A stretch of 64,000 nt of DNA from Telopea speciosissima (taxonomy: Eukaryota; Streptophyta; Magnoliopsida; Proteales; Proteaceae): contig NC_057916.1 in NCBI RefSeq assembly GCF_018873765.1, positions 26,821,501 to 26,885,500 of the forward strand, read 5' to 3'. The notes under the pieces were generated by a model. The model saw only the letters and a list, made by a program, of their open reading frames with translations, had not been told where the DNA came from and ran no database searches. Positions 2,841-33,255 of this stretch are shown piece after piece (the first letter of the stretch is position 1; every line of letters starts with the position of its first letter). Made by a program: the position numbers and the translations under genes.

Positions 2841-5325
2841 CTTAGTGAATGATATCTTATTCACTGTGGATAAAGGGAAACTCCATGCTTTGATATATTT
2901 CATTGGTCAACTTAAAATAATCATTTCGAGGCAAATGATGGTATTTTCCTTTAAAATTATTTGTAGCATTTATTTAAGTAAGTATGCTTACACATATCTG
3001 GAGAATTAGATTATAAGGATAAAAAATCCAAAATGATAGTTTGACTTTAGACTCTAGATTGCTAGTTGACGTCATAACCTATCCTATCGTTTCTCTTATA
3101 TAGTTTATTTTATGGATAATTTAGTCATATGATATATAACATTCAATCAAAAGGCTGTTATGAGTTTACTCGCTTCTCCCTTGTTGCTTGCTTTCCTTCT
3201 TTTATCTCTTTCTTCATTTTTTGCTTAACTTTGTGTATTAATGAATATTTATCTTACCAATTAAAAAATTAAAATTAGAAAACAATACATAATTTTGAAA
3301 TTTTCAAACAAAATTTTGATCAAAACCTTATAAACCTATCAAGTCGTTAGTGATTTCATTTCAACTAAAGTCGAAACCGAGCTAACCCATCGAAATTTAG
3401 AAATTCCAAACTATGCCTACACCAAACCAAAGGGAGCACGGGAGAGGGCATCTATCAGATGGTTAATATACAAGGGGCTTATATCCTCTATTAACAAATT
3501 ACTTCACATGATAAACCGACCATAATCCACAATTAATAATCGAGATTAACCCCATACTTCAATATAAAAATCCCCTTTTGCTAGTGCTAATGATGTACAC
3601 GAGATTCCCTTTGACGAGGAAAGAATGTTTCCAACTTAACATTGCAATAGAAATGATCATCCATCAATTCATTCTCAAGTATTGACACGTGGCTGAGGTG
3701 CCATTTCAACGTCAAAGATGGATGCACACTCGAGGAAAAAAAGAATTTTCAACTGGATGGTGTACATTCATCTCCGTTGTTGGAACAACACTTCGATCAC
3801 GTGTCGAGCTCTTAAAAACCGTGCTAGACATGTTGGAGCGAATCCCTGCGCTGGAGAGGAACCGGATCCCATTCCCACCTTGGAAGGTGGAAACCCCTTT
3901 ATTGTCTTGTTTTGTTCGTTGCTGTATTCGGATTTTTCTAATGAAGCAGAGAAGGTGGGAAGCAACTATTACTGTCTTGTCCTCTGTGTAGCTGTTGAGC
4001 GGAAGTTTTGCTGATGAGTTGAAGATGGAATGGGAATCACATGCTGACCTGTTTCCATGGAAATGTATGGGAAACAACGTACGTTGTTCCAATAATTCTG
4101 CAAAATATTTAATAGAATTAGCTGTTATTATATATATAGGGAAGAGATTTTGTGCATGATGCATGATTATGCACATAACCGTCGGATGGGATGAAGGGGT
4201 GCACCATGGATCATCATCTTCCAATCAATGGTTGTATTACCAAAAAAAAATCAATGGTTGTGTGTATTGTTGTATGGAATAAGAATAGATTGATCAATAC
4301 TGATCTTAATACCTGATCGATCTTATATCAATGAAATGGTATGGACTAAAGGTAAAACAGTAAAAATAAAAAAAAACTCAATTTTTATCCAAAATGAGGG
4401 GTAAAACTGTTCGATATGGATGATCCATGTCGTCTGTATCAATATTCTATTGGTTTCTAGAATAGCTGATATCCAATCCAATATTGTGCACTAAATCCAT
4501 AATTGTATGCATTATCATACACAAACTTCTTCTTATCATGTTGATTATTGAATGTTTGAAACAATCTTTTTATTTGGGACCAGTGCGCTTTGGGTGGGGG
4601 TGGGCCTCAAAAGGCAAAGGAGTTACTCCCTAGTCCACACAAAGAACAAAATAGAGTTGTGGAATCTAGTTTATCCAAAAAAAGAGAGTTGTGGACTCTT
4701 ATCCAATTTAACCCATTCTTGTGGTGCTTTGTTATATATATATGAAAGAAAAAAACATCACATTAGTGTTTGTTGAATTATGGTTAATTGGGTTTTCAAT
4801 TTGTGGTGTTTTATTGAAGGACAAAAATTTTCTCCATCCATCATCTTAGGGTTCACAAACCCCTTTTAGGGTTTTAGTATGTTCTAAAATACCCTCCTGG
4901 TACCATTCCCACCCTCTCCTGCCCCTCAACGAATGGGATCCCATTCACCGTGGATGGAGGGAAACTTGATCCTTTTTTGGATATGATGTAAAATAGTGGC
5001 ATTTATGAGGAATATTTTTTTCACCTCTAGAATATGAGAAATATATATGGTTTACTACTTTAGTATAAGAATTTATTACACATAGTAGGACTGTTTTTCC
5101 TGAGCTACACATCCACTATGAAATTCAAGGATAGCACAATTATTTACCATATGGAAGGTTGGATGGTGATGACATTTCACAGACATGTAGACCCCATGGT
5201 TTCTTATTCATATGTTAAGTTTCAGTCTAACAGAGTTTATCACATGACAAAATAAAACTTCGAAAAATCAATGAAACAAATGAGACCTAATAGAAAAAAG
5301 AGAGAGGGATACACATGCAACTTTT

Positions 5326-7864: not shown

Positions 7865-8458
7865 TCAAAGAACGGTATGAATTGTGGTGGGTTTCACCAC
7901 AGGACTAAATGTCTCTGTATAGTCGATGCCTTCTTGTTGGTTATAGCCTTTGGCAACTAACCGTGCTTTATACAGTTTGATCGTTCCATCAGCCCTTCTT
8001 TTTATTTGGAACACCCACTTTGAACCTACCACATTGTAGTCTGGTGATGGAGAAACCAAAGACCATGTCCCATTTTTCAGAAGAGCATTAAATTTCTCTT
8101 GCATTGCCTCTCTCCATTTTGCATTTTTGTTTGCATCTGTGAAGCATGTGGGCTCTCTCTCTATTGTATACTCGGTAAAGTGTGCCGAAGGTAATGGGTA
8201 CTTGGTGGACGGCCTTGGATTTTGCCTAAGCTGCATTGGATGAGTGTGCATATTGTCCATAGGAGGCGGCCTGTTGGCTGGAGACACCACTAATGCGGGG
8301 GCTGGTACATCACCTGCAGCACTTTCCATAGTGATAGAGTCACACACGTTATGTAATTGGGGTGGGGTGCAAGCATTATCACCATGAGGCAAATGGGGTG
8401 AATTTATATGAGAGTTTGGTGGTGAGAGGTGATGAGTTATTGGGAATCGTGTGTCCAT
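7865..8458 (-). pseudogene. Copia pol segment: linker and RT N-terminus
   Basis: The open minus-strand frame contains WREAMQEKFNALLKNGTW, GSKWVFQIKRRADG and YNQQEGIDYTETFSPVVK, the conserved start of plant Copia reverse transcriptase. It is in the same frame as the integrase segment, separated from it by one TAA at 8462-8464. A TGA at 7865 ends it, where the intact family reads on. Confidence 0.88.
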
Positions 8459-8461
8459 ACC

Positions 8462-9283
8462 TTATGTGTCAAGGGCCCTTGGAGATTGTAAACTAGATGT
8501 TGAGACTGTGAGCCAAGGAGTAGGGGGTGGTGTTGAATTTATAGTGGGAGGTGAGAAGGTGGCATAACGAAACATATCTTCAATGAAGCGTGCATGCCTA
8601 GCAATGTACATGCGGTCTTGAATTAAATCTAGGCATCGGTACCCATGATGTTTAGGAGAATACCCAAGGAATAGGCAAAGGGTAGAACGGTTGGAAAATT
8701 TGTTGGAGTTGTAGGGTCGTAATAGTGGGAATACGACACATCCAAATACTTTTGAAAAAGTATAATCAGGTGTTATTTTATAAAGTACTTGGATAGGAGA
8801 TTTCTGCTTGAGAACCACTGTTGATAATCTATTAATGGAGTAAATTGCCGTTTCAAACGCATAGGACCAAAATTTGAGAGGTAGGGATGCATGGGCCAAT
8901 AGTGTCAAACCAATATCAACAATATGTCGAATTTTTTTTTCAACGGCGCCATTTTGTTCATGGGTGTGAGGGCATGCAACTTGATGCATAATTCCATATT
9001 GAACAAGGGATTTATTCAATTTTTGAAATTCCCCTCCCCAGGCTGATTGGAAGGCTTTAATTGGAAGTGAAAACTGTTTTTCCACTATGACCTTGAATTG
9101 TTAAAAAATAGTAGGCACCAAAGAACGAGCAGAAAATGAATAATACCAAATGATTTTGGAATAATCATCAACAAAAATAATAAAGTAGCGCTAGCCTGTA
9201 CTCGATAGAAGAGGAGCTGGACCCCATATATTGCTGAATATTAAATCTAGGGGAGCATTACTAATGCTTCCTGTACAAAAGGT
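8462..9283 (-). pseudogene. Copia integrase, core and C-terminal part
   Basis: The minus strand reads LIFSNIWGPAP and FIIFVDDYSKIIWYYSF near 9150-9260, then CPHTHEQNGAVEKKIRHIV and FGCVVFPLLRPYN. The box usually written SDWGGEF reads SAWGGEF, so a catalytic Asp is lost. The N-terminal zinc-binding region is missing because the deletion junction at about 9284 falls just upstream. A stop interrupts the frame near 9100 and a TAA ends it at 8462. Confidence 0.87.
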
Positions 9284-16100: not shown

Positions 16101-19100
16101 AGACTCTCCGCGAAGCGAGGGTAAGGTTGCGTACATCTGCCCCTCCTCAGACCCTGTAGTTACTGAGCCTCATGCATTGGGACGCCCTTTTGTTTTTAGT
16201 AAAATCCAATAGCCAAACTTGGAATATTTTGAGTTAATTACACAGTCATTTAACTAATCAATTCAACATTTTAGTTTTAATTTCATTTCACTTCCCTTTA
16301 TTTCCCTTCCAACCAGACTAAGCCTTAAGGAGGACACCTCAAGGCTTAACCTTAAATGTTCCCACACGATAATGTAGTCCTAGATAGGTAGGAGACCTAC
16401 TAGGAGCCAGATAACAGGATCAATAGCAAAAGGGGTTGCTGGTTCGAATGGACAGCACTAGGGTTTAGGATGGGAATTTGGGAATGGGTCTTATATAGGT
16501 TTAATATGCAGGTCTAGGGGGTTATTATGGGATAAAAATAATAGGATTTGGGAAGGCTTTAAAATTTTGCAATTCTGGACAGAATTGAGTTGCAGGTTTT
16601 GGGTTTTAATGGAGTGGAGGAATGGAGGGGATAGAGTGGGAATTATGAGCTGGGTTTATGGTCGAGTGTAGGGAGAAGTGTGGGGGTTGTGTGCTGGGAA
16701 GTGTGGTTCGAAATTGATGGTCAGATCTGTAGTTATGAGGGAGTCCTAGTTAAAGTAGGAGTTGCAGGTTTAATAGAGATTAGGGTTTGATGGATGGAGG
16801 GGGTGTGTGGATTACGTCTAATGAAAGGGGAATGGCTAGGCAGAAGAAGGTTTTAAAACAAAGTGCAGGTTCAAACTTACTGAATTGCAGAAACAATGGC
16901 AGCAGCTTGATAACTTGAAGAAACCTCCCGATCTTCACGATACAAGGAGTCGCAGGAGTCCACCCACCCTATCCACCTTGAGATCCACAAGGATATACAC
17001 TCACAAAGAGCAGCAGCAATGGCAGCAAGCATAAAGCTAAATTTTATTGATCAAATTCGTATTTAATGCTGACCTCCCTTACAAACTTATATAGAAGACT
17101 CAAAAATAGACTTAGACACTAAAAAGGAATGGCCTAACCCTATCCCTAACCTATTAGGTAACTTAAACTGATTAGGAAACTAGAATACTAAAGGAAATAG
17201 ACTCAAAACATGGCTGGACTTATAGAGTCCTAATCCAGCCCAACTTACATCACATGACCACTTAAGTTGTCACATGACCACTTAAATTGAACCAATTGGA
17301 TGCAACCAATTTGAACCGGTTCAATTAAAAAAACATAAAAATAAACTAAGTATTGGGCTAATCCCGTATGCAACCTATGTACCCCTAGTTTAGGCTCATT
17401 AAAGTGGCCTAATACATAGAAAACCCTTGGGAACAAAGGCCCAACATGTATATAACCCAACCCTAGGCCTATTTCTAAAGAAATAAGCCAATTTCTATGA
17501 TGAACCTGCATCACACGAAGGTGTAAAGAGTATGTGATGCAAATTTCCCTAACCGTAAAACTCCCCTGGTTTTGTGGCTTGTGTGCATTGTACATCAATC
17601 GAAATAGTTTCTGCTAAAGTGTGTAATCGTGGGGTTGTGTTTTTGGAACAATGTACCATGGGATTATAATGTAAGACTAGAACCAGAATAGGTCTAATCT
17701 TAGTCAGGATCAAATAGAAAATCCTCCAATAAACAAGAAATAATATGAGGGAACCAAGAGAACAATGAGAAGTCAAATGAGGGAATAATTTCCTTGGTTG
17801 AAGTAACAAATAAAAACCGACAAATTTGTAACATGTTGAAGCAGCAGTGATCTTGATGTAGTAATCTTCAAGAAATCAATGTGACAATCAGTTGAAAGAA
17901 ATCCCAGTAGCTTGTAGCACTCTTGAGATCGATTTGAACAAAATTAGGGTTTGAATTTAAGAATCGATGGAAGGGGATGGGGGAATGGAATGGGCCTCTC
18001 ACCTATCCTATCTTAGAATTTCAACATTGCATAAGCAACTTTTCTATTCATTCAAATTCGTGTACAATGCTGGCCTCCATTACAAACTTGTGCAGAAGAC
18101 TAAAAAATAGACTTAGACACTAAAAAGGAAAGGCCTAACCCTATCCTTAACTAATAAGGTAACTTAAATTGATTAGGAAAGTGAAATAATAAAGGAAATA
18201 GACTCAAAACAGGACTCTAACTAAACTAATGAAATAAATTCCGTTTTCCTACTTTCTACCCATATTTTAGGCTCATTAAATTGGCCAATTGCAAAGTAAA
18301 CCCATGGGATCAAAAGCCCAACACCTACATAACCCAACCCAAAGCTTATTTTTAATAAAATAACCCCTCTAAGTGGCTCATCTACATCAGATCATGTCTA
18401 ATAGCTTAGTTGTAGTTAGTTGTTATGCCTCTTTAGTATTTTCCTTTTGTAATTAGACCTAGGTAGTTATTTGTTTCTATTGTAATTAGTCTTCCACTCT
18501 TAGTAGGATCCCTACTAAGAGTTGGTTATTGGATAATATAAAGGAATAGGTAGTCACGGACTCACGATAGAGCATTCAATCCATCGTGTTCTAGCTCTCT
18601 CTCCCTCTTCTCCATCTTCATCTCCATCTCTCTCTCTCTGTTCTCTTCTTCTTCTTCACAGGTTCTAGTTGTTGAGGTTTTGTCACATGGTATCAGAGTG
18701 ACGAAGAAGAAGGAAAAAAAAAAAATCTGAAACCCCTAGTTGTTGAAACATGAAAACTAGGGTTGTCGAACCTGTTGCAGAAAACTATTGTTGTCCTTGG
18801 TTGATATTATTGAATTTATTGCTTTTGTTTCAGAGTTTAATATCGTCCGTCTGTGTGTTGGTGTGTGCTTCATGGCCATGGATTTCACAATTCTTGGATC
18901 TGCAGTATCTATTCTGTCAGTTATAGCTGTTATTGTACCTTTCGCGGCAATTTGGGCCATTGAGGCTCTGATCCATGTCTGCAAAGCTGAAATCTTCAAG
19001 GAGGTCGGAAACGCTTATTTGCTCTCTGGTGGTAGTGAAGGAATTGTAGCTTCTCATGTTGCTCCTCCTACTTCTGCATTTCAGATTGGGGACCCACGAT

Positions 19101-22100
19101 GGCCTTTCTTATATCCGGTTTGAGAACATCACCTTTTGGAGGAGTAAGGAAGTTGCTGACAAGTATTCAACTATGGAACATAGCACAGGCCTGGTTCAGG
19201 CTATTATTTTCGAGTCAGCTGATCGGGAGAATATTGTTGCAAACCAGGAATGCAACAGTGTAGTGGCTCGTCCATCACGTATTCCTCCTGAATATAGATA
19301 AACTCTAGCTGGCGCTGCAAAGATTTGAGGCGGCAACCTGGTTTCCCCACCTTCTCCTTTCAATCGAGAGGCAGTGTTGCTGCTACTTCGCCTGATGTTG
19401 TGATGTCCGCTGGCTGCTTGTTTCGTAGGTTGAAGACAGTTGTAGTCGCCTGGTTTAACCTCTTAACTCTGTTTTCTTTATTTGTTTTTTTTCATTACCT
19501 AAAATACCCTCCAGTTCTACAGTTATTCTTTCATATCCCTTCTCTTAACTTTGCTTCCAAGTTTACCCCTAAGCTATAATTTTTAATACCACATCAATTC
19601 CTCTCTCTTTTACCAAAATATGACTTGGAAAATCTAATTTATTACAAGTTTGCCATTCCTTTTTACCTGCCAAGTACCTCCTTGGACATTCTGGTTAATT
19701 ACAGGTCTGCCACTCCTCTTGGTAAGCTTGCAATCAATTACAGATTTGCCATTGGTCTTGTATATTTGCCATTTTATTGCTTTAGTGGGCCTTAGATCAC
19801 ATCAGTTTGGGGTTGCAATTTTTGAGATTGGTACTTGCATGGAGTAATGTTGTTGCTACTCATAAGTGGATGCTGCGTATTGTTTATATTATATTGGATG
19901 TTGGTTCTTTCCTTGGGAAGCCACCGTTTTGCTGTTGTTATTATTGGAGATTATTTGCTCAGATTGTTTGAATCTGGCCTATCTGGGATTTTATTTGCTG
20001 ATCTTTCGTGATGTTGATTCTTGCTTCCCTATGATGATGGATTGTCATTTATTACATTCTCAGCATTATTTGTCCACGTGTAGTGCTACACATGAGGGGG
20101 AAATTGGAGTTATCATCTGGTATTTGAAGATTATTATTGTCATATGCTCTAGTAAAATCAGCTGAAGATTATTATTATTTGCTTGTTCGTGTCATCTGCT
20201 GGTGTCCTCAGCAGATAATTACTTTTTAGCAGCAACTTTATCCTGTTACTTGAGGTTCCCAACAACCTTATGTTGTGTTTTGTGGTTCCCAACAACCTTA
20301 TATTGCTAGCAGTGGTCTGCAGTAACCTATTCTGCACTTTTATCAATGGTCTGCAATAACCTATGCTGCACTTCTATCAGTGGTCTGTAGTAACCTATAC
20401 TGCTTTTTTATCATTGGTCTGCAGCAACCTATTTTATCAGTGGTCCACAGTAACCTATACTGAACTTTCACCAGTGTCACAACGACCTCTGTTGCGCTTT
20501 CATCTGTCTTCTTTATGAAAATTCCTACTTGCCTTCCTTGAGAAGGGCTTATGATGTTGCTGTTGCTGTTTGGGTTTTTATTCAACACAAAGATTTTTCT
20601 CTACTATTGCTGCTGATGATTGGTGTGCTTGAGTTGGTATTGGTACCAGAATGAATATCTCTCTGTGCTCACTGGCTTCTTTGACCGCTATATATGTTCA
20701 AGACTGGTTCTGCTGTTGATATCTATTCTTGTTGTTCCAAGCTGGAGCCTTTGAGAGGGGGGGGGGATGTTGAAGTGTGTAATCGTGGGGTTGTGTTCCA
20801 TGGATGTTCCATGGAACCGTGTACCTTGGGATCATGTCTAATAGCTTACTTGTAGTTAGTTGTTCTGTCCCTTTAGTAGTTACCTTTTGTAATTAGACTT
20901 GAGTAGTTATTTGCTTCTATTGTAATTGTTCTTACACTCTTAGTAGGATCCCTACTGAAAGTTGGTTATTGGATAATATAAAGGAATAGCTAGTCACGAT
21001 AGAGCATTCACTCCATCATGTTCTAGCTCTCTTTCCCTCTTCTCCATCTCCATTGTCTCTCTCTCTCTCGATTCTCTTTTTCTTAGTTCTTCCTCACATG
21101 TTCTGGTTGTTGAGATTTTGTCACAATTTCATTGTCACAAAAGTTGGGGGGGGGGGGAGATTCTTCCAGAGCTGAGCTGGTTGTCTCTTGCTTTCAGTCA
21201 TAGTTTGGCTTCAATGAGGGTTATAGAAGCATAATTGTGAGGCAACATTCAGTCATAGTCATTAGTTGGATGCAGCCAAATAATAACGTATCATGGACTC
21301 AGCTGTATTAGTCTTTGCTTCTTCTATGACATCTTGTTCCATTGGAAGCACATACGAGCACTAACATCTTAATGTGTGTGAACAGGTAACCAGTGTTGGA
21401 GGGTTCCGTTCTGTTGTATTTTCCTATCTTTATGTGATCTCTGGCTGCGAGGTAGCCCTTGATATTTATATGTCTCTCTTTTATATTAATAGAATCATTA
21501 ATAATTAAATAAAAAAAAAGCTTCAAAATCAGTTATATCTCTTTTGATATGACTTATGAGTTTGTATATCTTTTTATATGCGTTGATGTGCAAAGATAAC
21601 TTTTGAGGGTTACAAATTCTGCCTCAGAAGGTCGTTATGACTTTCTGCAAATTGAACTTCAGGAAGTCAAAAGATGACCTAGGTTGAAGCATGAGATATA
21701 TGATTGTTCATGAGCTAACAGCTTGTATGGCTTTAAGCAGGATTCTTGTAGTTGACCACAATTAGATTTGTGTGTCATTTTGAGATGGATCTATTTATCA
21801 CCTTGGGAAGAAAAATGCTATTATTCTCGATATAAAAACACATCATCTTTACCCGTTAAGACAGCTATCGGTTGTTTTAAAATAACAATTTTGTTGGATT
21901 TTGTGAATTAGTATGATATTTTGGAGCTTCTAGGGGTCCTCTAATCTGAAATATTTTGAAGCTCTTACTAGAAGTCCACTATCTCATTTCAAAGCTTGTT
22001 GCCTTTTCCTTCTAGGGGTCCTCTAATTTATGTCACTGCTTTTTTCCTTCTGGGTTTTTTTTTTGGTGTGTGTGTGTGTGTGCATGTCCTGTGTGCTAGA

Positions 22101-31464: not shown

Positions 31465-33213
31465 CTATTCATCCGCATCTCTATCCTTCTTTTTCTTCTT
31501 CTTCTTCTTCTTCTCACTTCCATCTTCATCACTCCCAACAGCACTCGCAGGTCCTCCTGAGGCACCATCATCGTCATTCTCTTTACTCTTCTTCTTCTTT
31601 TTCTTCTTCTCAGACTTCTCCTCGTCTGAGAATCCAGCTCCACCATTCTCTTTAGACTTCTTCTTCTTTTTCTTCTCCTTCTTATCAACTTCAAGAGACT
31701 CCAACTCTTCCTCCTCTGCCTCTTTTTTTTTCTTCAACTTCACCTTCTTCTCTTCCTTTTCGACAACTTCAACATCTTCAACCTTTACTTTCTTAGTAGG
31801 AATAGGAGCAGGGCTGCCATTATCCTCTAGTTTACGCTTATGCCCTTCCTCATCTTCCACATTCTTATGTTTCTTCTTCTTCTTTTTCTCCTCCACAACC
31901 ATTTCTGTCTCCACTTTCACCGGAACCAGTTCACCAGCAGCAGCAAGACCTGCAACCATAGCATCTCCTCCTGCTGGGAGAACCACGTTCCTCAACCACT
32001 CTGAGGGGGTGTTCTCATTAGGTTTTCCATGCTTATCCAACTTGCCCGCTGCAACCAACTTCTTCTTCATCGAAGCCCTAGGACCAAGACCCCATTTCCT
32101 TGGATAAGTGTCCCTATCCATCACCACCCTCTTAATCTTTGCAACCACACCATGATCACAAGTTGCCATCACTGCAGTGGTCATTTCTGCAATACCCAAA
32201 GCAATTGCCTCTCCCTTGGTGGTCATCAACACAACCTCCTCTCCTACCTCAATATCATTCTCAAATCTTAGCAACCCAGGTATCATAAACTTGGCACCAT
32301 AACAAATAGCATTCACTGCAGAATCCTTAACAACCAACCTCTTATAACTCGTTAACACTACTTCAAGGGGCATTATAACCCTCCTCAGATAAGTCTCATC
32401 TCTGTAATTTTCATAAACCCACTGAGCATCCATTACGTCATGCATTGTAACCATGTTATCCTTCTCACCTAAAATCCCAGACCGAACGCGGCGGAGCTCC
32501 TGCATATGCCCTCCAACACCCAAAAGCAGACCCAAATGGACACATAGCGTCCTAACATAGGTACCTGCCTCGCAAGAAATCCAAAAAACTACTAAATGCT
32601 TATCAGCGTCATACTCAAGAAGCTTACTTTCATAAATGGTTCGAATCCTGAGTTGCCGTTTGACCGCAGAAATGAGCGGAGGCCGCTGAAATACAGCTCC
32701 AGTAAGTGTTTCAAGAGCTCTGGCGACCTTAGCGACATCGGGTACCGCCGAATGAAGCCTTGCAATGCAAACGTACTCTTTCCCAGCTCCCTGCTGCGAT
32801 TTTACGAGGCGGGTCGCTCGATCGATGCAGACGATGAGATTCCCAGTCACTTTGGGATCGAGGGTTCCACTGTGACCGGTCTTCTCGACATGAAGGATAC
32901 GTTTGATCCACGCAACGACTTCGTGAGAAGAAGGGTTTGCAGGTTTGTCGAGATTGAGGACTCCGTACTTGATGTACTCATGGAGGGGACGCTTCAGAGG
33001 AGAGTAACCAGAAGGGAGTGGAGTGTAGTGGCCGGTACGGACGTTGAGGCGATCGTAGTTCTTGAGGAGGATAGGCCATTGGGAGGTGTCTAAGGAAGGG
33101 GTGAAGCTCTGGGGTTTGATCAGGAAATCGACTTGGTCATTTGGGTTACTTTCATTGTTGGAATCCTTCTTTTTCTTCTTCTTCTCTGAACGTGAGTGTT
33201 CAATCTCAGACAT
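31465..33213 (-). CDS. CBF5: Dyskerin / CBF5 pseudouridine synthase (NAP57)
   Basis: A single uninterrupted 582-codon frame. The product is the catalytic subunit of H/ACA small nucleolar RNPs, which converts uridine to pseudouridine in rRNA and snRNA in nucleoli and Cajal bodies and supports telomerase RNA. Residues 48-105 fit the DKCLD/dyskerin-like domain. The TruB core follows, with [11 protein letters not shown] at 114-124 and catalytic Asp119, then [13 protein letters not shown] at 216-228. A PUA domain fits about 297-371. The C-terminus from about 440 is a lysine-rich KKE/KKK tail typical of nucleolar targeting; the N-terminus also has a lysine run at 11-16. Length matches plant homologues (about 560-590 aa), and the Arabidopsis gene is also intronless. 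The Met at 33213 precedes the conserved N-terminus and no better upstream start exists. The large frame on the opposite strand (31397-32107) is a shadow of the KKE codons. Confidence 0.97.
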
Positions 33214-33255
33214 GGCGACTATCTTGTTTCAGGGTTTTTCTCAAGCCTCAACTTT

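Follow-up and report, generated by a model that had tools for sequence, protein, structure and literature searches.

Positions 17612–21125 of the window, the 64,000-nucleotide stretch of Telopea speciosissima DNA analysed here, are an old, decayed non-autonomous LTR retrotransposon, and positions 18820–19239 within it reproduce, in spliced form, the 5′ end of a GOST/TMEM87-type seven-TM host gene. Relatives with the same repetitive 3′ body carry other host genes at the corresponding position, a slot that lies between leader and body. This non-autonomous family was very probably mobilised in trans and repeatedly took up pieces of host mRNA through reverse-transcriptase template switching in virus-like particles.

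The element has paired TG..CA LTRs and lies within a 5-bp target-site duplication, GTTTC at 17607–17611 and ATTTC at 21126–21130 (4/5 identical). The 3′ LTR spans 358 bp (20768–21125, forward strand, as are the 5′ LTR arms, primer site, leader, sense piece, body and polypurine tract). The 5′ LTR is divided into a left arm (17612–17669), whose 30-nt block at 17612–17641 is 93% identical to 20768–20797, and a right arm ending in GTCACA (18389–18687). Between them lies an inserted stretch of about 715 bp (17670–18388, borders approximate), in which blocks 18052–18216 and 18237–18366 repeat 17051–17215 and 17360–17489; no clear target duplication was found around it. The uninterrupted arm (18390–18687 against 20830–21125) is 89.6% identical over 289 sites, giving a K2P distance of 0.113, a value from a single clean arm that is preferred over the 0.13–0.15 of a joint alignment with the interrupted 5′ LTR. 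The 5′ LTR is followed by a primer-binding site, TGGTATCAGAGT (18688–18699), with one mismatch to the usual initiator-Met type site, and then by a purine-rich leader (GACGAAGAAGAAGGAAAA...) together with a stretch of unknown origin (18700–18819), both common to a second copy on C5. The non-coding 3′ interior, or family body (19410–20752), starts with a boundary motif (19410–19438), contains tandem repeats of ~30–34 bp at 20233–20458, and is widespread in the genome from about 19740 onward. A G-rich polypurine tract, GAGAGGGGGGGGGGA (20753–20767), adjoins the 3′ LTR. The paired LTRs, Met-tRNA primer site, polypurine tract and rTTTC flanks named in the first-pass annotation are therefore all present; its coordinates marked out an LTR element, but missed the insertion hidden within the 5′ LTR and an antisense RPT3 piece. 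TRIMs are very small elements with short LTRs, a class to which the window element, with an LTR of 358 bp and an interior of 2,080 bp, does not belong.

The window copy appears to encode nothing intact and recognisable. Its longest interior ORF is 111 aa, and a Pfam search of ten interior ORFs and two receptor-like frames returned no gag or pol family, in agreement with the earlier description of an interior without any pol motif; among the ten ORFs, Clathrin (E 0.01) and Holin_2-3 (E 0.071), neither of them a retroelement family, were matched weakly and did not reach their curated cut-offs. An Rfam search of the window returned nothing. The earlier statement that a host fragment had replaced gag-pol describes the end state correctly, but a single replacement event is unsupported. 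Since the element has no pol and no autonomous partner was identified, the Copia label once attached to it cannot be derived from the window copy. At L004, an LTR-like match (78%) lies ~1.1 kb from an ORF with an SH3_retrovirus domain (PF25597, E 8.3e-12); this pol-like ORF may belong to another element and is at most a candidate sign of an autonomous partner.

The donor of the main captured piece lies elsewhere in the genome, as had been predicted for a seven-TM receptor gene. Window positions 18860–19310 match host exons at C3:20716344–20716609 (exon 1, 86%) and C3:20718613–20718735 (exon 2, 93%), with E-values of 8.7e-86 and 6.1e-44. These exons are separated by 2.0 kb with GT/AG splice sites; the intron is absent from the element, and the exons are joined exactly at 19116|19117 in both element copies, in the window and on C5. 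The exon 2 ORF of the donor matches GOST_TM (PF06814, E 1.5e-56), and a PDB comparison gave TMEM87A chains at E 9e-28. The piece (18820–19239, sense) comprises 41 nt of 5′UTR, exon 1 and the 5′ part of exon 2. Its reading frame is broken in both copies, and the receptor-like text reported from two adjacent frames is real, as the host exon matches attest, but belongs to one host frame, which a small deletion has split in the element. The two broken frames gave no Pfam match, and one of them, compared with the PDB, gave none there either; the identity therefore comes from the donor gene. On the question of whether the captured piece is shared, one other element, the C5 copy, also holds it. The C5 LTR does not align with the window LTR beyond its 3′ end, so LTR lineage and capture are not strictly linked. 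A second host gene is represented by 69 nt at 19266–19334, antisense to the element, which match RPT3 (26S proteasome ATPase 6B) loci on C11 and C2 at 92.8% identity.

Among 16 slots read in the family, eight have named donor genes; six were read without a donor search, and L045 and L051 match loci of unassigned identity, the L051 slot having about a dozen matches (best C8:64225716–64225933, 84%) that may represent a repeat or a gene family. Eight host genes are thus recognised in one family of one genome, one of the eight labels being presumptive. The relative on C7 (L010) holds four joined exons of coatomer beta′, including one of 21 nt, from which the donor's three introns are gone, and a relative on C2 (L087) holds three joined eIF(iso)4G-like pieces that lie apart in the donor at C11:9705963–9707997, two introns being absent as judged by coordinates. 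L014 holds SKP1 exon 1 and continues beyond the donor's splice site, so that this piece too is presumably spliced. An RPL12 piece occurs in both L016 and L023, with 97% identity between them; its aligned donor is intronless there and thus uninformative on introns. L003 holds an F-box piece and an antisense A20 piece. Pfam, run on eight slot ORFs, matched RPL12 below the curated cut-off and A20 (L003) likewise (E 0.034), and did not recognise SKP1 or coatomer, so the SKP1, coatomer and A20 identities rest on donor DNA matches; ten ORFs of other slots matched nothing in Pfam. Three further candidates were discarded: a ~140-bp palindromic repeat in L010 (query 114–257), which is a high-copy insertion, positions 723–1046 of the L003 query, a high-copy repeat, and L084 as donor of L003, being another element of the same family. 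The gene-capturing non-autonomous family proposed from the window alone thus emerges more strongly from its relatives. As in Bs1-type capture, intronless host pieces are found (GOST, coatomer beta′ and, by coordinates, eIF(iso)4G-like), and pieces have multiplied with the element (GOST in two elements, RPL12 in L016 and L023).

How far the surroundings of the slot are conserved was scored by alignment in 17 sequences. A primer site with 0–2 mismatches that leads into a comparable purine-rich leader is present in ten, the window included; the purine-rich leader is missing after the primer-like site of L014 and of L019, L046 has unconvincing sites only, and no primer site was found in the other four. 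The boundary motif outscores every one of 170 mononucleotide shuffles in seven of the 17, one being the query copy itself, and does not in the remaining ten. Such shared leaders and bodies would allow swaps, and it is conceivable that the element formed a single time, GOST piece included, and that the other slots arose by recombination of co-packaged element RNAs and later insertions rather than by repeated host capture, as the C5 copy, with the same interior and another LTR, might also suggest. We consider this unlikely: six slots match different host genes at loci elsewhere in the genome, which requires at least one capture per gene.

Repeated capture by template switching is also favoured by the ends of the pieces. 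The donor ATG was located for four sense pieces, which start 41, 69, 69 and 154 nt 5′ of it, and the gene's 3′ end is missing from the GOST, coatomer beta′ and RPL12 pieces and, by reading only, from SKP1. Retrocopies that LINEs generate retain the 3′ end together with poly(A), lose the 5′ end, and have their own target duplication. Processed pseudogenes made by LINEs, landing in existing LTR elements and then amplified together with them, would likewise be intronless, but these sense pieces have the opposite polarity, the window sequence shows no poly(A) after the GOST piece, and six different contents occupy one slot between similar leaders and bodies; we regard this origin as very improbable. 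Kept 5′ ends and missing 3′ ends instead fit template switching by reverse transcriptase. Equally improbable as a general explanation is capture at the DNA level, by a Helitron, in the manner of a Pack-MULE, or as repair filler inside the element. Mosaics of several gene pieces, as in L003 and the window, would be expected from it, and the short pieces of RPT3, F-box and A20 may have arisen in this way; for GOST (one intron) and coatomer beta′ (three) it is refuted because the introns are precisely absent, and two are missing by coordinates from the eIF(iso)4G-like piece. Chance or a normal gag as the source of the receptor-like text, which the blank Pfam result for single broken frames could have suggested, is refuted by the strong nucleotide matches to exons of a GOST_TM gene and has next to no probability.

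Under template switching, the enzymes for movement would be supplied in trans, and spliced host mRNA would be packaged with element RNA in a virus-like particle. For the sense pieces, minus-strand synthesis would depart from its element template close to where the 3′ body begins, reverse transcriptase would enter the spliced host mRNA part-way and copy toward its 5′ end, and synthesis would return to the element template not far from the primer-site leader; the outcome would be a slot between leader and body filled by a host transcript's 5′ end. The antisense pieces (RPT3 in the window, A20 in L003) could reflect a switch to an mRNA template while the plus strand was being made. In this best explanation, the window copy itself was inserted some millions of years ago. 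LTR-mediated retroposition in animals involves RNA template switching between an LTR element and host mRNA, and the resemblance to it is one of description, not of sequence. More tentatively, and with a little less than even confidence, we suggest that the family traps the 5′ ends of mRNAs, with a fixed slot between a conserved leader and 3′ body repeatedly refilled from abundant housekeeping mRNAs as reverse transcriptase reaches their 5′ ends and switches back, so that each copy is a frozen record, with polarity, of one packaging-and-switching event.

Gene capture by LTR elements is already well known, from Bs1 and from at least 189 captures in maize; the family itself is new, with no mention in the literature searched, as far as its accessible parts extend. 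Bs1 of maize is an LTR element with pieces of three host genes (PMC13317346), exons only (PMC4717578), and is described in these accounts as having formed a transcribed and translated chimeric gene. The family resembles it in holding several host gene pieces inside an LTR element, but its GOST copies have broken frames, and six different slot contents were recognised in it. Surveys list 425 gene-carrying intact LTR elements with at least 189 captures in 81 families of maize (PMC2774510), and 672 genes in LTR elements of rice and 1,343 of sorghum (PMC3726574). Host gene fragments lie inside those elements too, but in the maize survey never more than one gene per element (PMC2774510), whereas pieces of at least two genes lie in the window element, in L003 and in L016/L023, and the accessible parts of these accounts do not treat a 5′ bias of captured pieces (PMC2774510, PMC3726574). 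Gene-carrying TRIMs such as GmaRetroS15 of soybean share exon-only pieces and 5-bp target duplications, one of them with three genes, but are 1,172–1,449 bp long (PMC4717578), in contrast to the 358-bp LTR, 2.1-kb interior and long repetitive 3′ body found here.

While LTR-element gene capture has so far been known mostly from event-counting surveys, this family offers donor loci that can be identified, boundaries that are shared in part and, in the few measured cases, a consistent polarity (5′ end kept, sense). Template switching between co-packaged RNAs becomes testable from fossils, with breakpoints, microhomology, orientation and donor expression scorable across one family. Such elements are also an annotation hazard, resembling truncated genes (TMEM87-like, SKP1, RPL12) in plant gene sets. 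Two relatives show target duplications of their own, perfect in L003 (ATAAC/ATAAC) and 4/5 in L010 (CTATC/GTATC), and their LTR divergences, K2P 0.341 with rough borders in L003 and 0.161 in L010, both exceed that of the window element.

An old LTR element occupies window 17612-21125, as judged from sequence reading and comparison of its LTRs. Some 715 bp of other repetitive DNA split the 5' LTR (17612-18687), which is followed by a primer site (18688-18699), while a polypurine tract (20753-20767) precedes the 3' LTR (20768-21125). The first-pass annotation had described the paired LTRs, primer site and polypurine tract together with rTTTC flanks; all are present, and the flanks (GTTTC/ATTTC) are identical at four of five bases. 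Over 289 sites, the uninterrupted LTR arm and its partner are 89.6% identical (K2P 0.113), which corresponds to an age of roughly 4-8 million years if plant sites change at a yearly rate between 7e-9 and 1.3e-8. No interior ORF exceeds 111 aa, the length of the longest, and none of ten interior ORFs gave a retroelement family in Pfam, in line with the earlier reading of an interior without a pol motif. The Copia-type label given in that annotation is a putative one. Window 17051-17489 and 18052-18366 form a related repeat pair ~0.9-1.0 kb apart, one of them within the 5' LTR; a relative at locus L087 is adjoined by a reading resembling the window's minus-strand ORF 17245-17598.

Between the primer-site leader and the 3' body lies a slot that holds pieces of host genes. 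A genome search matched window 18820-19239 to two parts of a gene on contig C3 (C3:20716344-20716609, 86%; C3:20718613-20718735, 93%), where a GT splice site closes the first match and AG precedes the second. These parts are joined at 19116|19117 in the window element and likewise in a copy on contig C5. In Pfam, the ORF of donor exon 2 hits the GOST seven-TM domain (PF06814, E 1.5e-56), and its structural matches are to TMEM87A (E 9e-28), bearing out the prediction of a host seven-TM-receptor donor elsewhere in the genome. A more distant paralogue of the donor lies at C5:55.79 Mb. The C3 lineage appears the likelier source, since both element copies have lower K2P distances to the C3 gene than to the paralogue (window, 0.103 against 0.180; C5 copy, 0.108 against 0.159). 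Among the nine genome candidates, all of them scored, only two are elements with the GOST piece, the window element and that at C5:11864949 (L038), so the captured segment is shared with one other element. Its reading frame is broken in both through different changes, and we thus see no sign of kept function. L038 is interrupted near its 3' end at ~3096-3900 (C5:11.867 Mb) by sequence resembling a LINE reverse transcriptase fragment. The LTR of this copy is alignable with the window LTR at the 3' end only, which suggests either LTR exchange or a separate subfamily.

The window slot also contains a piece of RPT3 (19266-19334), antisense to loci on C11 and C2 (69 nt, 92.8% each) and to a C1 locus (67 nt, 89.6%). 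The C11 locus encodes the N-terminal part of RPT3, 26S proteasome subunit 6B (PDB E 2e-61; PF16450 E 9.3e-12).

From ~19740 onward, the window interior is widespread in the genome, as seen with a whole-interior query for which the best 40 of 794 candidates were scored, a lower bound. The LTR query gave at least 43 matches, a figure in which the window's own copies are counted along with some matches split into pieces, again a lower bound from the best 40 of 152 candidates. Several relatives are alike in primer site, leader and body and differ in the contents between them. Slots were read in sixteen elements (the window, L038, thirteen others and L087), and donor genes were named for eight (the window, L038, L010, L014, L016, L023, L003 and L087); the sixteen also include six loci outside the genome search (L011, L019, L025, L046, L055 and L059). 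The proposed gene-capturing non-autonomous family is thereby upheld, as relatives carry other host genes. Some ORFs of the L025, L046, L055, L059, L045 and L051 slots had no Pfam match. The L045 slot is 77% and 75% identical to C9:4801244-4801429 and C9:4806474-4806617, 5 kb apart. The L051 slot has matches of 75-84% identity at about a dozen dispersed sites, including C8:64225716-64225933 and C8:21917756-21918000, and its content may be a gene family or a repeat.

L010 joins four coatomer beta' exons, one of 21 nt, whose donor at C2:72.036 Mb has three introns, each GT..AG, and encodes a peptide matching coatomer beta' chains (E 7e-30). Upstream of this piece in the slot, a ~140-bp near-palindromic repeat (L010 query 114-257, C7:49.668 Mb) occurs at many genome places and looks like a MITE. 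L087 joins pieces found apart at C11:9705963-9706009, 9707572-9707672 and 9707866-9707997; neither Pfam nor PDB gave this donor a name, and from its N-terminal sequence we presume it to be eIF(iso)4G-like. L014 holds 360 nt matching SKP1 exon 1 (82%; donor Skp1_POZ E 2.8e-30) and extends beyond the donor splice site, where its sequence resembles an exon 2. L016 and L023, 97% identical over the entire stretch, carry RPL12 (Ribosomal_L11_N E 6.8e-7 and 4e-7, under the curated cut-off), with a donor 80% identical to the element piece (Pfam E 2.5e-20). A second L016 piece after RPL12 (query 527-740) matches C6:62798716-62798929 and C1:76064471-76064692. L003 combines a sense F-box gene piece (87%; donor F-box-like E 1.7e-7) with an antisense A20 zinc-finger gene piece, 69% identical to the C4 locus that was read (zf-A20 has E 9.7e-11 there versus 0.034 in the element).

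The slot borders are recognisable but not uniform, since the leader was found in 10 of 17 sequences and the boundary motif exceeded shuffles in 7. In those ten, a primer site with 0-2 mismatches leads into a purine-rich stretch similar to GATGAAGAAGAAG; in L014 and L019 no such stretch follows the primer site, L046 has unconvincing primer sites only, and none was found in L055, L025, L011 or L015. The motif at the start of the 3' body (19410-19438 region), queried with the version from L014, scored higher than every one of 170 mononucleotide shuffles in the window, L014 itself, L003, L087, L055, L046 and L015, and no higher than the best shuffle in the other ten. Two other members have their own 5-bp duplications (L003, ATAAC/ATAAC; L010, CTATC/GTATC).

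Among the four sense pieces with a located donor ATG, admittedly few cases, homology starts upstream of the ATG by 41 nt in GOST, 69 nt in both RPL12 and SKP1, and 154 nt in coatomer beta'. The GOST, RPL12 and coatomer beta' pieces all lack the 3' part of their gene, as the SKP1 piece apparently does too. In LINE retrocopies the end bias is reversed. A kept 5' end with a missing 3' part would be expected if reverse transcriptase entered an mRNA internally, ran to its 5' end and returned to the element RNA. That LTR elements take up spliced fragments from the host is already established, as described for Bs1 (PMC13317346), maize (PMC2774510), TRIMs (PMC4717578), and rice and sorghum (PMC3726574). 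The Telopea family is a new family among such elements, distinctive in how many genes a single slot has held, in its several multi-gene copies and in its apparent 5' polarity.

L004, at C1:19.483 Mb, contains a retroviral-polymerase SH3-like ORF (L004:3-395; PF25597, E 8.3e-12). An LTR match of 78% identity lies ~1.1 kb downstream of this ORF, and the locus may point to an autonomous partner. Elsewhere in the window, both on the minus strand, lie an adjacent ORF pair at 7865-9100, resembling Copia-type integrase and reverse transcriptase, and a 587-aa open frame with a lysine-rich tail at 31465-33228, resembling dyskerin/Cbf5.
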